Shown here: in pieces, positions 14,835 through 20,901 of the stretch
How positions within the stretch are numbered: the stretch's first letter is position 1
How the letters are laid out: every line of letters starts with the position of its first letter
Assembly: GCF_000007705.1 (NCBI RefSeq)
Contig: NC_005085.1
Span: 3,171,752 to 3,235,751, forward strand
Source of the DNA: Chromobacterium violaceum ATCC 12472
Lineage (GTDB): Bacteria; Pseudomonadota; Gammaproteobacteria; Burkholderiales; Chromobacteriaceae
DNA length: 64,000 bases
Direction: 5' to 3'
The notes under the pieces: model-generated
Told to the model about the DNA's origin: nothing
Seen by the model: only the letters and a program-made list of their open reading frames with translations
The model's database searches: none
Program-made: the position numbers and the translations under genes

Positions 14835-15284
14835 ATGAACCTGATCAAGCTGATAAGCCCGTTCATCGCCATCGGCCTGGCCATCGCCAGCCCCCTGAGC
14901 CACGCAGAGCCGGAAGACCAGCCGCTGCCCGGCGACTTCCAGCCCGCGCCGGCCGCCAAGCCGCTGCACCAGCCCCGCGCCAAAGCCGCGCCCAGCCACG
15001 CTTCCAAGCCTGCCGCCCATGCGGAGGGCAAAGCCAAGGCCCCGCACGCCAAATCCGGCAAGGCCCACGCCAAAAAACATGCCGCCAAACCGCATCACGC
15101 GAAATCCAAGCATGCTTCCAAAAACAAGCGCGCGCAGGCCGGCGGCAAGCATCTGAAAAAAGGCCAGGCCAAGCATCACGCCAAGAAGAAAGCCCACAAA
15201 CCGGCCAAGGCCCACAAGCACAAGGCCCATAAAAATAAGAAGACAACCGCCAAGCCGCATCACAAGCACAAGAAAAAGCATTAG
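14835..15284 (+). CDS. Lys/His/Ala-rich exported basic protein
   Basis: 149 residues. A signal peptide (MNLIKLISPFIAIGLAIASP, cleavage after SHA) leads into EPEDQPLPGDFQPAP and then roughly 100 residues composed almost wholly of Lys, His and Ala with patterns such as KAHKHKAHKNKK, ending KKKH. Such tails resemble histone H1-like repeats but an export signal argues against a nucleoid role. Possible roles are binding of metal, polyanions or the cell envelope; none is shown. The coding assignment rests on the intact frame and the signal peptide; no strong Shine-Dalgarno is visible. Confidence 0.6.
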   Translation: MNLIKLISPFIAIGLAIASPLSHAEPEDQPLPGDFQPAPAAKPLHQPRAKAAPSHASKPAAHAEGKAKAPHAKSGKAHAKKHAAKPHHAKSKHASKNKRAQAGGKHLKKGQAKHHAKKKAHKPAKAHKHKAHKNKKTTAKPHHKHKKKH

Positions 15285-17235: not shown

Positions 17236-17784
17236 TCAGCGCCGCCTAGCCTGCCACAACACGTCCGGCACGCCGCCTTCGCGGTTCAGATAGCGGGCCA
17301 GCACGAACAGGAAATCCGACAGGCGGTTCAGGTAGCGGCGCAGGGCCGGAGACACATTCTCTTCGCGCGCGAGCGCCACCACCGCCCGCTCGGCGCGGCG
17401 GCAGACGGAGCGGGCCTGGTGGGCCAGCGCCGCCGTGCGCAGCCCGCCCGGCAGAATGAACTCCTTCAGCGGCCCCAGCTCTTCGTTCATGAAGGACACC
17501 AGGGCCTCCAGCGCCTGAACGTGGCCATCCGCGATGGCCTGGTAGCCCGGCACCGCCAGTTCGGACCCCAAGTCGAACAGGTCATGCTGCACTTCCGCCA
17601 GCCATTCCGCGATCGGCGGCGGCAGCGTTTCCGCCAGCAACACGCCAATCACCGAATTGAGCTCGTCGACATCCCCCAGCGCCTGGATGCGGACGCTGTC
17701 CTTGGCGACGCGGCTGCCGTCGCCCAGTCCGGTGGCGCCGTCGTCTCCGGTGCGGGTGACGATGGAGGACAAGCGATCACTCAT
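17236..17784 (-). CDS. Cob(I)alamin adenosyltransferase, PduO type
   Basis: 182 residues. Makes adenosylcobalamin from ATP and cob(I)alamin. PduO-family signatures are present: TRTGDDGATGLGDGSRV at the N-terminus (ATP site), GDVDELNS, LPGGLRTAALAHQARSVCRRAER and YLNRLSDFLFVLARYLN near the C-terminus. The ATG at 17784 is preceded by GGGAGGGCGGG and overlaps the end of the 900-residue upstream gene by 8 bp, so it is translationally coupled. Last gene of the pepA-holC operon. The CobA/BtuR-type fold is excluded by the motifs. Confidence 0.92.
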   Translation of the reverse strand: MSDRLSSIVTRTGDDGATGLGDGSRVAKDSVRIQALGDVDELNSVIGVLLAETLPPPIAEWLAEVQHDLFDLGSELAVPGYQAIADGHVQALEALVSFMNEELGPLKEFILPGGLRTAALAHQARSVCRRAERAVVALAREENVSPALRRYLNRLSDFLFVLARYLNREGGVPDVLWQARRR

Positions 17785-20479
17785 GCCCGCCCTCCCCATC
17801 CCTGCGCCCGGCATCGCTCAGCGCCTGGCGCAGGCTCTCCTTCAGCGCGTCGCCGAACAACATTTCATAGTCCTCTTTCAACTGGTGCATCATCCCGGAC
17901 AACATCTGCTTGGCCTGCACCTCGATCGCATCCTGCAGCCACAGCGACAACTCCACCTTCATCCTGGGCAGCATCTGCTCGTACAGAGAATCGAACAGCG
18001 CCTGCTCGTCCAGCCCTTGGGGCGACTGCCTGGAGGCTCCCGCGGCCGCGGCTGAGGTCATGGCCGCCACCTTGAGCACCGACACTTCGGCGGCGGAATC
18101 GACTGACGCCGACGGCTCCGCGACCGGCTCAGCCAACGGAGTCGACACCGCGGGCGCGGCCAGGCCCCGGCCCAGCAGACCGGACAAAGCCGGCATGTCC
18201 TCGTCCTCCAGCGGCGCCGGCTGCGGCACCGCCTCGTACAAGGTGGATACCGCATCCTCCTCGACCAGAGGCTTGGCCTCGGGCTCAGGCTGAATGTCCG
18301 GCACAGCCGCTTCCGCCACCGGCAGAACCGGGATGGACGCAGAAAGCGCCTCCGCAGGCAACGCTTCGCCAGCCTGCGGTTCCTCGGCCTGATGGCCCTC
18401 GAACGCCGCATCGAAGTCCGGCTCCGGCGGCGCGAATGCCGCCTCGGGCCTTTCCTCGACGGACTCGTCCGGCTGATCATGTTCCGGCAAGGCATCGAAC
18501 GGCTCGATTTCGGCCGCATGCGGCTCCGCCGCCAATCCGGCCAGCGCCTCCGGCGCCATTGCGGGCTCGCGTTCAGAATCGAACGCCGCATCTGGCAATG
18601 CCGCCGCGTCTTCCTCTCCTTCGAGGAGCGCGTCCGCCTGCCCGAATGCCGGCGCCGCGTCCTCCCCGGCCGCCGGCTCCGCCTCTTCTTCCAGCGACGG
18701 CAATTCGTCGCCTTGCGGCGCCGCCGCCGGATCCGGTTCCCGCGTCTCTGCCGGCGCGGCCTCATCCAACAGCAAAGCCTGCTCTTGCGCTCCGCACGCC
18801 GACGGCTCAGGCTGCAGCGGTTCAAGCCGCTCCGGCAAGCGCGCAGGCGCAGACTCCGCAGCATCCTCCAATACCGATGGCTCGCCATTCATGGCGCCAT
18901 CAGCCTCAACTGCGCCGCCATCGATCGAGTCGAACGCGGCAACCGGTTCCGATTCACAGGCAGGCGCGCTGGCGTCCTCTGCCGACTCCGGCAGCGATGC
19001 ATCCCCCGCTTCAGGCGGGAATGGCGGAGGCGCGCCGTCCTGCCTCTCCGGCTCGGCAGCGGGCGCGGCTTCCGTCAGCGAAGCCGGCTGCGCCTCCACA
19101 TCCCGCTCGATCAACGCAGGCCAGTCCAGGACAATCGCCGGTTCCGCCTCTTCCGCCATCGGACCGGTCTCGGCCTCCGGCTCTCGCGGCCCTGTCTCGG
19201 GCGCTGTCTCCGACATGGCCTCCATTCGTTCGGCTGGCGCTTCGCCATGCCCATCCGGCAGCTCGATCTCGGCAGAGTCGATGCTGGCCGGCGCTTCCAG
19301 CTCCGCCGCAGCGGCGAAATCCGGCAACGATTCCGGCTCAGGAACCTGCGCCGTCTCCGCTGCCGGTCCGACAGGCGCCTCTGCAACCGGGGAAGCTTCG
19401 TCAAAACCGCTGACCGCGGTCTCGGCAAGCGGCTGGATTTCTTCCGACGCCGGCGCAGCCGCCGGCTCTGGAGCGGCAGGAGGCGGCTCTGCCGGACGCG
19501 TGCCAAACGCTTCCACAGCGGCCAGATTGGCGGCTGCCTGCTTGGCGCGCTCCTCGGCCAGCACGCGCTCCGCCTCGGCTATCATGTCCTTGATGGAGGG
19601 CTTGGGAGGCTCGGCCTGCTGCGAAGGCAGTTCGGACAGCCACTCCAGGCCGCTGGGCGGGGCCGGCTCGCGGCCTACGCCGCCGCCCAGCACGCCGCTC
19701 GGCAAGCTGTCTATGGAAATGGAAGTGAACGGCGCCGCCTCTTCCCGCTCCGACTCCGCTCCGGCAGCGCCGCTCGCCTGGGCAGCCGAAACGGGCGGTT
19801 CGGGGGGCAGGTCAGCGCCGCCGGGCTCGGCGGGTGACAAGGCGGGTCCCATCTCGACCGGGGGCGGCGCGGCCTCGGACACGCCCTCCGGCTCGGGCAA
19901 TCCGGCAGGCGCCGCCGCCTGCGCATCGCTGTCCAGGGCCGGAAGCGAATCGGCCTGCAGTTCGCTGGCCGCGGCCACGACATCGTTCCAGCTGACCGCC
20001 TCTGGCATCTCCGGCTCGGACGGCGTTTCCGCCGCCGGCTCAAGCGGCTCCGACTCGGAAACGGCCGGATGCAGGTCGGCCCGGGCCATCAAGGCGGCCA
20101 AACCGTCCGCATCCTGGACAGCCGCCTCTGCCTTGGGCTCCAATACGAAATCCAGCCCCTCGCCGTCCACCGATCCATCCGCGTCTGCCAGCTCGAGCGA
20201 GGGCAGATTGCTGAAATCCAGGCCGCCGGCGGGCTCCGCGGGCGTAGGCGCCTCCAGCAACTCGTCCAGTGTCAGCTCGGGAATTTCCAGCTCGGTCTCG
20301 CCCTCGTCCAGCTCGGCCGCCAGCAAGTCCAGTTCGGAGGAAAAGTCGAACTCGGGCACCTCTGCCGGCGGCGCTTCCTCGGCCAATGTCGGAACGGCCT
20401 GCTCGTCCACCACTTCGGTCAGGACCGGCAGGTTGAGGCCGCTCCAGTCGGGCTCGTTGGCTTTCGGCGACTCAGTCAT
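17777..20479 (-). CDS. 900-residue acidic Ala/Glu/Pro-rich protein of unknown function
   Basis: About 900 residues, very poor in Lys and Arg until the end. The N-terminal 830 residues are a low-complexity mix of Ala, Glu, Pro, Asp and Ser with scattered short hydrophobic clusters (LDLLAAELDE, LEIPELTLDELLEAP), expected to be disordered. The last 70 residues are different: an amphipathic helical region (LYEQMLPRMKVELSLWLQDA, QMLSGMMHQLKEDYEMLFGD) that looks like a conserved coiled-coil or interaction module. No signal peptide or membrane segment. The start codon overlaps holC (ATGA) and the stop overlaps the adenosyltransferase, so it is fixed in a tightly coupled operon. No function can be assigned. 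The long Ser-rich frames on the opposite strand are mirror images of its biased codons. Confidence 0.82.
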   Translation of the reverse strand: MTESPKANEPDWSGLNLPVLTEVVDEQAVPTLAEEAPPAEVPEFDFSSELDLLAAELDEGETELEIPELTLDELLEAPTPAEPAGGLDFSNLPSLELADADGSVDGEGLDFVLEPKAEAAVQDADGLAALMARADLHPAVSESEPLEPAAETPSEPEMPEAVSWNDVVAAASELQADSLPALDSDAQAAAPAGLPEPEGVSEAAPPPVEMGPALSPAEPGGADLPPEPPVSAAQASGAAGAESEREEAAPFTSISIDSLPSGVLGGGVGREPAPPSGLEWLSELPSQQAEPPKPSIKDMIAEAERVLAEERAKQAAANLAAVEAFGTRPAEPPPAAPEPAAAPASEEIQPLAETAVSGFDEASPVAEAPVGPAAETAQVPEPESLPDFAAAAELEAPASIDSAEIELPDGHGEAPAERMEAMSETAPETGPREPEAETGPMAEEAEPAIVLDWPALIERDVEAQPASLTEAAPAAEPERQDGAPPPFPPEAGDASLPESAEDASAPACESEPVAAFDSIDGGAVEADGAMNGEPSVLEDAAESAPARLPERLEPLQPEPSACGAQEQALLLDEAAPAETREPDPAAAPQGDELPSLEEEAEPAAGEDAAPAFGQADALLEGEEDAAALPDAAFDSEREPAMAPEALAGLAAEPHAAEIEPFDALPEHDQPDESVEERPEAAFAPPEPDFDAAFEGHQAEEPQAGEALPAEALSASIPVLPVAEAAVPDIQPEPEAKPLVEEDAVSTLYEAVPQPAPLEDEDMPALSGLLGRGLAAPAVSTPLAEPVAEPSASVDSAAEVSVLKVAAMTSAAAAGASRQSPQGLDEQALFDSLYEQMLPRMKVELSLWLQDAIEVQAKQMLSGMMHQLKEDYEMLFGDALKESLRQALSDAGRRDGEGGHE

Positions 20480-20901
20480 GGCGTTTGACTCATGTCGTGA
20501 TGTTCGATTTCGCAGCCGTGCTCACGGTAGGCACGGAAGCGCTCGCGGGCGGTGGCCAGCGACTCGGGGTCGCGTCCCACTATTTCAAGAATGCGCTCAA
20601 ACCTGCCGAATTCAAAGGGCAACTGCGGCCCCAGATTCAGCAATACCGGATGGGACAGATCGTCGGGCAGGCTGGCGGCCAGCCAAACCGGCGTCTCGGC
20701 CGCCTCCGGGGCGCCAAGCCGGCAATGCGGCACGAAGCGGGTATCGCCGAAACTCCACAAGCGGTTGCTGAACACCTCGACGCTGCGCTCACTGTCCAGC
20801 CAGATCAGCAACCTTTCCTTCTTGCGCTGCACGGTATCGGCCAACCTGCAGGCAAAAGCCTGCGGGTCGGCGACATTGGTATAAAAATCAATCCTGCTCA
20901 T
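20476..20901 (-). CDS. holC: DNA polymerase III chi subunit
   Basis: 141 residues. Chi links the clamp loader (through psi) to single-stranded DNA-binding protein. The family N-terminus IDFYTNVADPQAFACRL, central KKERLLIWLDSE and LWSFGDTRFVPH are characteristic. It overlaps the 3' end of pepA by 14 bp, and pepA-holC is a widespread order in beta- and gammaproteobacteria. Its stop overlaps the next start by 4 bp. Confidence 0.95.
   Translation of the reverse strand: MSRIDFYTNVADPQAFACRLADTVQRKKERLLIWLDSERSVEVFSNRLWSFGDTRFVPHCRLGAPEAAETPVWLAASLPDDLSHPVLLNLGPQLPFEFGRFERILEIVGRDPESLATARERFRAYREHGCEIEHHDMSQTP

Follow-up and report, generated by a model that had tools for sequence, protein, structure and literature searches.

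Gene X, encoded directly after holC in Chromobacterium violaceum, is a selected and conserved gene for a large acidic protein of scaffold-like build

Results and discussion

A 900-codon gene between holC and a cobalamin adenosyltransferase gene

The window, by which we mean the whole stretch of 64,000 nucleotides of Chromobacterium violaceum ATCC 12472 that was analysed, carries a gene, here named gene X, for a disordered acidic protein (Table 1). X is a real gene: its reading frame is intact and begins with an ATG that shares 4 nt with the holC stop (ATGA, 20476-20479), as noted in the preliminary description. The overlap of 8 nt described at its other end holds if 17784 is taken as the ATG start of the adenosyltransferase (MSDRLSSIVTRTGDDG); its longest reading frame would start at 17814 and overlap X by 38 nt. 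Upstream of holC lies pepA, and the identities of HolC, the cobalamin adenosyltransferase and the leucyl aminopeptidase were verified by Pfam. The host genome is a single contig of 4.75 Mb, in which valS is located about 306 kb from X, so that X is not beside valS there; no X motif was found in the 3.4 kb around this valS. Searches with the whole protein, its N-terminal end and its C-terminal end gave no Pfam match at E ≤ 1, searches with the whole protein and the C-terminal end gave no NCBIfam match at the same threshold, and no second copy of either end was found in the own genome at E ≤ 10. Elsewhere in the window (14835-15284, forward strand), a 149-aa ORF has a signal-peptide-like start and a body extremely rich in Lys, His and Ala, with a histone-H1-like composition.

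Table 1. Gene X, its neighbours and its parts, in window coordinates
Feature	Position	Strand	Basis
holC (DNA polymerase III chi), immediately upstream of X	20476..20901	-	PF04364, E=2.9e-37
Gene X, disordered acidic protein, 900 aa	17777..20479	-	Intact 900-codon ORF
N-terminal docking-type motif LPVLTEVV, residues 17-24	20408..20431	-	[LVI]P[VI]L[TDS][DE] in 55/55 complete family copies
Second N-terminal motif PEFDFSSELD, residues 42-51	20327..20356	-	10-sequence alignment
Acidic Ala/Glu/Pro-rich linker, length variable among relatives	18014..20305	-	Composition; dN/dS 0.18-0.48
Internal conserved segment SISIDSLPSGVLGGGVG, residues 253-269	19673..19723	-	Majority consensus, 28-sequence alignment
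Internal helix, residues 296-324	19508..19594	-	AlphaFold2, block pLDDT 77-88 over 291-320
C-terminal module, one predicted 72-residue helix, residues 825-896	17792..18007	-	AlphaFold2, conservation, dN/dS
Cobalamin adenosyltransferase, immediately downstream of X	17236..17784	-	PF01923, E=3.3e-58

The protein contains 20% Ala, 16% Glu, 13% Pro and 7% Asp, with 1% Lys and 2% Arg. The four first residues, said in the preliminary description to make up almost all of the protein, account for about 56% of it. More specifically, the linker between residues 61 and 820 is 22% acidic, 3% basic and 14.5% Pro. Within the second N-terminal motif, P42, D45 and E49 are invariant and F44, F46, S47 and L50 almost so in the alignment of 10 sequences. 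Prediction of the full-length protein by AlphaFold2 with 28 sequences gave a mean pLDDT of 47.8, and 680 of the 900 residues fell below 50, in agreement with the disorder that had been anticipated. Helices were predicted at residues 47-58, 71-75, 164-172, 296-324 and 825-896, the last two alone with confidence. The distinct helical C-terminus of about 70 residues noticed earlier thus corresponds to a single predicted helix of 72 residues, with ten-residue block means of 80-94 over 821-890. When the C-terminal fragment was modelled alone (35 sequences), it again formed a single helix (residues 40-111/115), with block means mostly above 90, and 14 of the 69 columns of the module are invariant among 16 sequences. 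The internal helix and several short conserved motifs were absent from the earlier description.

Both ends of X are conserved throughout the family

We read 61 family loci, of which 60 were fetched and one is that of the window, and HolC is present in all 61 genomes. Complete copies of X, including that of the window, were obtained from 55 loci; the six others were excluded for N runs (L039, L071, L074) or for a contig end or short ORF (L050, L057, L085). All 55 complete copies, from 10 genera of the family, lie directly after holC, in line with the fixed position that had been claimed for the gene, and all have an LPVLTEVV-type motif within the first 40 residues and a C-terminal module of about 70 residues. 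The start overlaps holC by 4 nt in 43 of them and lies at -8 to +4 nt in the others, and an adenosyltransferase motif is found downstream in 54, the exception being L069. The length of the protein ranges from 414 to 1017 aa across these copies, and from 470 to 1017 aa in Chromobacterium.

A public scan with a profile of the C-terminal end returned 46 loci, including Chromobacterium, Aquitalea, Pseudogulbenkiania, Paludibacterium, Craterilacuibacter, Gulbenkiania, Crenobacter and Vogesella; the remaining loci belong to two Neisseriaceae bacteria and two Neisseriaceae MAGs, to one beta proteobacterium and to a record that carries the label Xenophilus. The closest of the named loci are those of Chromobacterium vaccinii and C. 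piscinae, whose C-terminal ends are 97% identical to that of X over 67/69 residues. The linker aligns poorly between relatives, despite a constant composition: it is 20 ± 2.4% acidic, 2 ± 0.8% basic and 12.5 ± 1.5% Pro in 49 of the 55 complete copies, the six with another, LPRM-type variant having failed the C-terminal pattern.

A shorter gene occupies the same slot in other lineages

A shorter gene with a similar motif, often located before valS, fills the slot after holC in most loci of the order and in some of those of the class. The ORF that follows holC in the 60 order loci mostly codes for 70-320 aa, with a linker, an amphipathic C-terminal end and one to three IPVLTEVV motifs. For comparisons we kept 49 of these 60, leaving out five in which no X was recognised, five with X joined to ValS and one with an N run. 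By pattern, an N-terminal helix of the L..xDALL type was present in 24 of the 49 order X proteins and in none of 49 family copies.

An unbiased count of the motif covered all forward frames of the 560 nt that follow holC (one more order locus, L214, was excluded as too short). The strict motif occurred in 50/60 family, 47/60 order, 14/29 further order and 4/69 class loci, and the loose motif in 51/60, 41/60, 8/29 and 22/69, respectively. On the reverse strand, used as a control, the strict motif was found in no group and the loose one in a single class locus (0, 0, 0 and 1); upstream of holC, the strict motif was found in 0 family, 6 order, 1 further order and 0 class loci. Other motif counts in the class set, and partly in the order set, are circular, as those sets were picked by motif pattern.

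Comparison of profiles with profiles placed the family C-terminal end only moderately above controls against order C-terminal ends (87%; reversed 55 and 25) and at 82% against the pooled set (reversed 55). Amphipathic helices inflate such probabilities, since class against order X gave 89% with reversed controls of 75 and 83%. Longer forms, from 339 to at least 476 aa, were found in families f5, f14 and f22, and the length of X may rise stepwise towards the giant form. The giant X looks like an oversized form of a small uncharacterised protein that occupies the same slot in many other Proteobacteria.

The uncharacterised domain DUF2486 (PF10667) shares with X the slot after holC and an N-terminal IPxLTDV motif. 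Two members of family f31 match it strongly (L133, E=4.1e-44; L192, E=1.8e-40), and X itself lies directly after holC with an N-terminal IPVLTE/D-type motif, as expected of a DUF2486-type holC-linked family. DUF2486 members have 136-247 aa, in contrast to the 900 aa of the window X, which gave no PF10667 match at E ≤ 1 with the whole protein, the N-terminal end or the C-terminal end. A DUF2486 match was also absent from 33 of 34 order members scanned together, including L134 of f31, and eight further X proteins gave no Pfam match over the cut-off. In the literature searched we found no published study of gene X, a single paper that mentions DUF2486, and no mention of PA3833, which we take to be the Pseudomonas gene in the slot after holC. 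In L251 and L252, which share one gene, the slot contains a 598-aa protein whose N-terminal helix (HTLEEVLKSLQDLIRNDL) resembles that of PopZ; the protein also has a second, similar copy of this helix and an IPVLNEVV motif near its end.

HolC and ValS as candidate partners

X was not found after holC in several lineages. In family f44, which has small genomes and may belong to Neisseriaceae, no X was recognised by pattern in the three loci with enough sequence. A valS signature is found no further than 330 nt from the holC stop, which leaves scant room for X, in 0/60 family, 4/60 order, 2/29 further order and 17/69 class loci. In L206 (f51) the adenosyltransferase directly follows holC, which is the gene order of the window minus X.

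The position of X raises the question of whether it is a partner of chi (HolC), bound to it and serving as a tether for the clamp loader or SSB, thereby replacing or adding to an unrecognised psi. All 55 complete family copies, like most of the order loci, have X immediately after holC, and the EFDFSSELD segment, acidic and hydrophobic, may loosely resemble the SSB tail bound by chi. Consistent with such a role, none of the 61 family genomes has a recognisable psi (PF03603) above the cut-off; 8 weak matches were seen at E ≤ 1, none of them at X. A psi hit at E ≤ 0.01 was obtained in 4 of 69 class genomes, all among the 38 in which the pattern recognised no X, a number too small to test psi replacement by co-occurrence. 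However, HolC is never fused to X, its ORF ending at most 17 residues past its domain in 219 of 219 loci, and X was not found beside holC in several lineages. HolD (psi), the expected partner of chi, has a disordered and conserved N-terminus according to PMC3197488, which is a likeness to X, whereas X has neither a match to PF03603 nor a predicted alpha/beta domain; that source also expects a diverged psi where psi is not found. Taken together, a role as chi partner seems unlikely. In L190 and L191, a 158-166 aa ORF after an rpoH-like gene gives a weak psi-profile match (E 0.19 and 0.09) and is a possible cryptic psi.

In the wider set, the other frequent neighbour is valS. A scan for fusions covered 159 loci, 97 of which have the X motif, and valS is downstream of X in 72 of these 97, as a separate ORF in 62 and joined to X in a single ORF in 10, from nine families (L099, L129, L142, L143, L149, L150, L193, L199, L222 and L263); in the 25 others valS is not in the stretch covered. 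X could then be an accessory that positions ValS, either as its N-terminal tether or as a hub, with holC as a mere neighbour. The joined ORFs and the 62 separate valS genes are in keeping with this, as is the lack of a Met at the usual ValS start in L099 and L129, but the other 8 joined ORFs keep that Met, so ValS alone could still be made from them. Moreover, close co-directional genes can fuse neutrally, and in the window genome X has been kept and enlarged although valS is far away and has no X motif nearby. We consider this explanation improbable.

These observations bear on the replisome link that had been drawn from the joint expression of X with holC. Assigning X to the replisome from its proximity to holC alone is not justified, because valS is often equally close in the wider family and is sometimes joined to X. 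A specific replisome role found no support in the fusions (X-ValS in 10/97 X-motif loci, HolC-X in 0/219), and the link is weakened further by the lineages in which X was not found next to holC and by the frequent adjacency of valS.

Selection on the ends and on the linker

Among 11 close pairs, dN/dS was 0-0.16 for the last 85 codons of X, 0-0.31 for the first 60 codons and 0.18-0.48 for the linker. The C-terminal end was below the linker in 11/11 pairs and the N-terminal end in 10/11, the exception being the pair L305-L306 (0.31 against 0.26). The selected function suggested in the preliminary description is thus upheld, with both ends kept in 55/55 copies and dN/dS below 0.5 throughout. Loss of the C-terminal segment in other genomes, together with a length varying without pattern, had been set beforehand as the mark of a drifting gene. 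The segment was present in 55/55 copies with dN/dS of 0-0.16; proteins of very different lengths (414-1017 aa) all keep both ends. The linker, with a dN/dS below 0.5 and a maintained composition, is a constrained spacer and not the product of drift. That X is passively drifting low-complexity filler is hardly credible and is largely refuted by the selection and conservation data, as the more than twofold difference in linker length inside the family is outweighed by the two ends conserved in 55/55 copies, by dN/dS below 0.5 for all three regions in 11/11 pairs and by the maintained linker composition.

A putative tethering scaffold

X is selected, conserved and scaffold-like in build. It has conserved ends, a linker predicted to be disordered, synteny with holC, a motif shared with the shorter proteins and a record of purifying selection. 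We propose that X is a tethering scaffold of PopZ-like plan, with docking motifs, an acidic spacer and a C-terminal assembly helix, grown from a short ancestor, and we put the chances of this reading at about even. The conserved N-terminal segment (LPVLTEVV, then VPEFDFSSELD) would dock one or more partner proteins. The long, acidic, Pro/Ala-rich disordered chain would provide a flexible spacer that repels its neighbours and carries a few additional docking motifs. The long conserved C-terminal helix would bring X chains together in a multimer and so create a multivalent hub. The giant form may have arisen by expansion of the linker from a short ancestor, which many beta- and gammaproteobacteria carry between holC and valS. 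We infer the docking, the self-assembly and the function as a hub, and likewise the direction in which the length changed. An acidic linker would at least fit the nucleic-acid mimicry that had been suggested.

Several results count against a scaffold. In the C-terminal module, the strongest hydrophobic period is 3.9 residues and not 3.5 (permutation p=0.0015, range 3.3-3.9), so that the module is no textbook two-stranded coiled coil, and it has no PDB match at E ≤ 0.001 (best E=3.7). In the profile comparison, the family C-terminal end was only moderately above controls against order C-terminal ends, as given above, and scored 3.7% against class C-terminal ends, and the lineages in which X was not found after holC suggest that its role is dispensable or replaceable there.

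The X family is widespread and almost undescribed, in a fixed slot by a replication gene and often by an essential tRNA synthetase gene. In one of its branches the linker has been enlarged to give a protein of 400-1000 residues with both ends frozen, which offers a natural series on the length of a disordered linker.

Comparison with PopZ

The plan of PopZ, as given in PMC9512792, consists of an N-terminal helical region that binds clients, an acidic and proline-containing intrinsically disordered region and C-terminal oligomerising helices. X has this order of parts, with an N-terminal segment, an acidic Pro-rich linker predicted to be disordered and a C-terminal region predicted to be helical. 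The differences are that PopZ has several shorter C-terminal helices where X has one long predicted helix, and that the linker of X is up to several times longer.

We sought DUF2497 (PF10691), the domain of the alphaproteobacterial polar scaffold PopZ, in 150 genomes of the phylum and obtained 37 over the cut-off; 30 loci were fetched and 25 were recognised by pattern. In 19 of these 25, valS lies downstream of PopZ within 1.5 kb, a neighbourhood shared with X (72/97 X-motif loci), in contrast to the window X. The link between popZ and valS is also reported in PMC5686542. X itself has no DUF2497 match, and two matches in its own genome (E 0.022 and 0.093) fall outside X; the one at 2781254, within the 654-aa open frame of a different helical protein, was taken as chance. 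Weak C-terminal DUF2497 matches were seen in the genome families f73, f77 and f90 of the phylum, sometimes repeated in one frame (for example G551:C10 and G498:C29).

An early profile comparison of X with PopZ gave 64% (reversed 30%), a value that dropped when the alignments were rebuilt. The rebuilt C-terminal comparisons gave 23% for class X (reversed 3 and 3; 23 of 31 sequences, 8 long or doubtful ones being omitted), 31% for order X (27 and 41) and 38% for the pooled set (9 and 16), so that two of the three sets outscore their own reversed controls, with all scores low; the family C-terminal end gave 0.4%. The N-terminal similarity, at 2.6%, lay below its controls (3.6 and 5.3%). Sequence homology between PopZ and X is therefore not established, and we do not claim it. 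A degenerate motif chosen post hoc, [VI]xxLT[DE], occurs in 8/24 PopZ and 34/49 order X proteins (shuffle means 0.2 and 0.4), in 6/49 family copies (shuffle mean 2.6) and in 2/31 class X.

The association of longer linkers with lower charge, seen in the PopZ set (rho -0.56, n=24), did not extend to X. In the family the acidic fraction rises with length (rho 0.40, p 0.004, n=49), with no correlation among genus medians, and order X gave no clear trend (rho 0.24, n=36). The family trend is opposite to that reported for PopZ and counts against the scaffold reading.

PopZ is described in PMC9512792 as restricted to alphaproteobacteria. It is conceivable, although we regard it as doubtful, that the gene in the slot between holC and valS is the beta- and gammaproteobacterial counterpart of PopZ, descended from it or replacing it in an ancestral slot before valS, as a polar or replisome-associated hub, with an enlarged spacer in Chromobacteriaceae. 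If so, a hub would exist in lineages thought to be without PopZ, and X, as a PopZ-like hub, would be a candidate organiser of poles or replisomes in these beta- and gammaproteobacteria.
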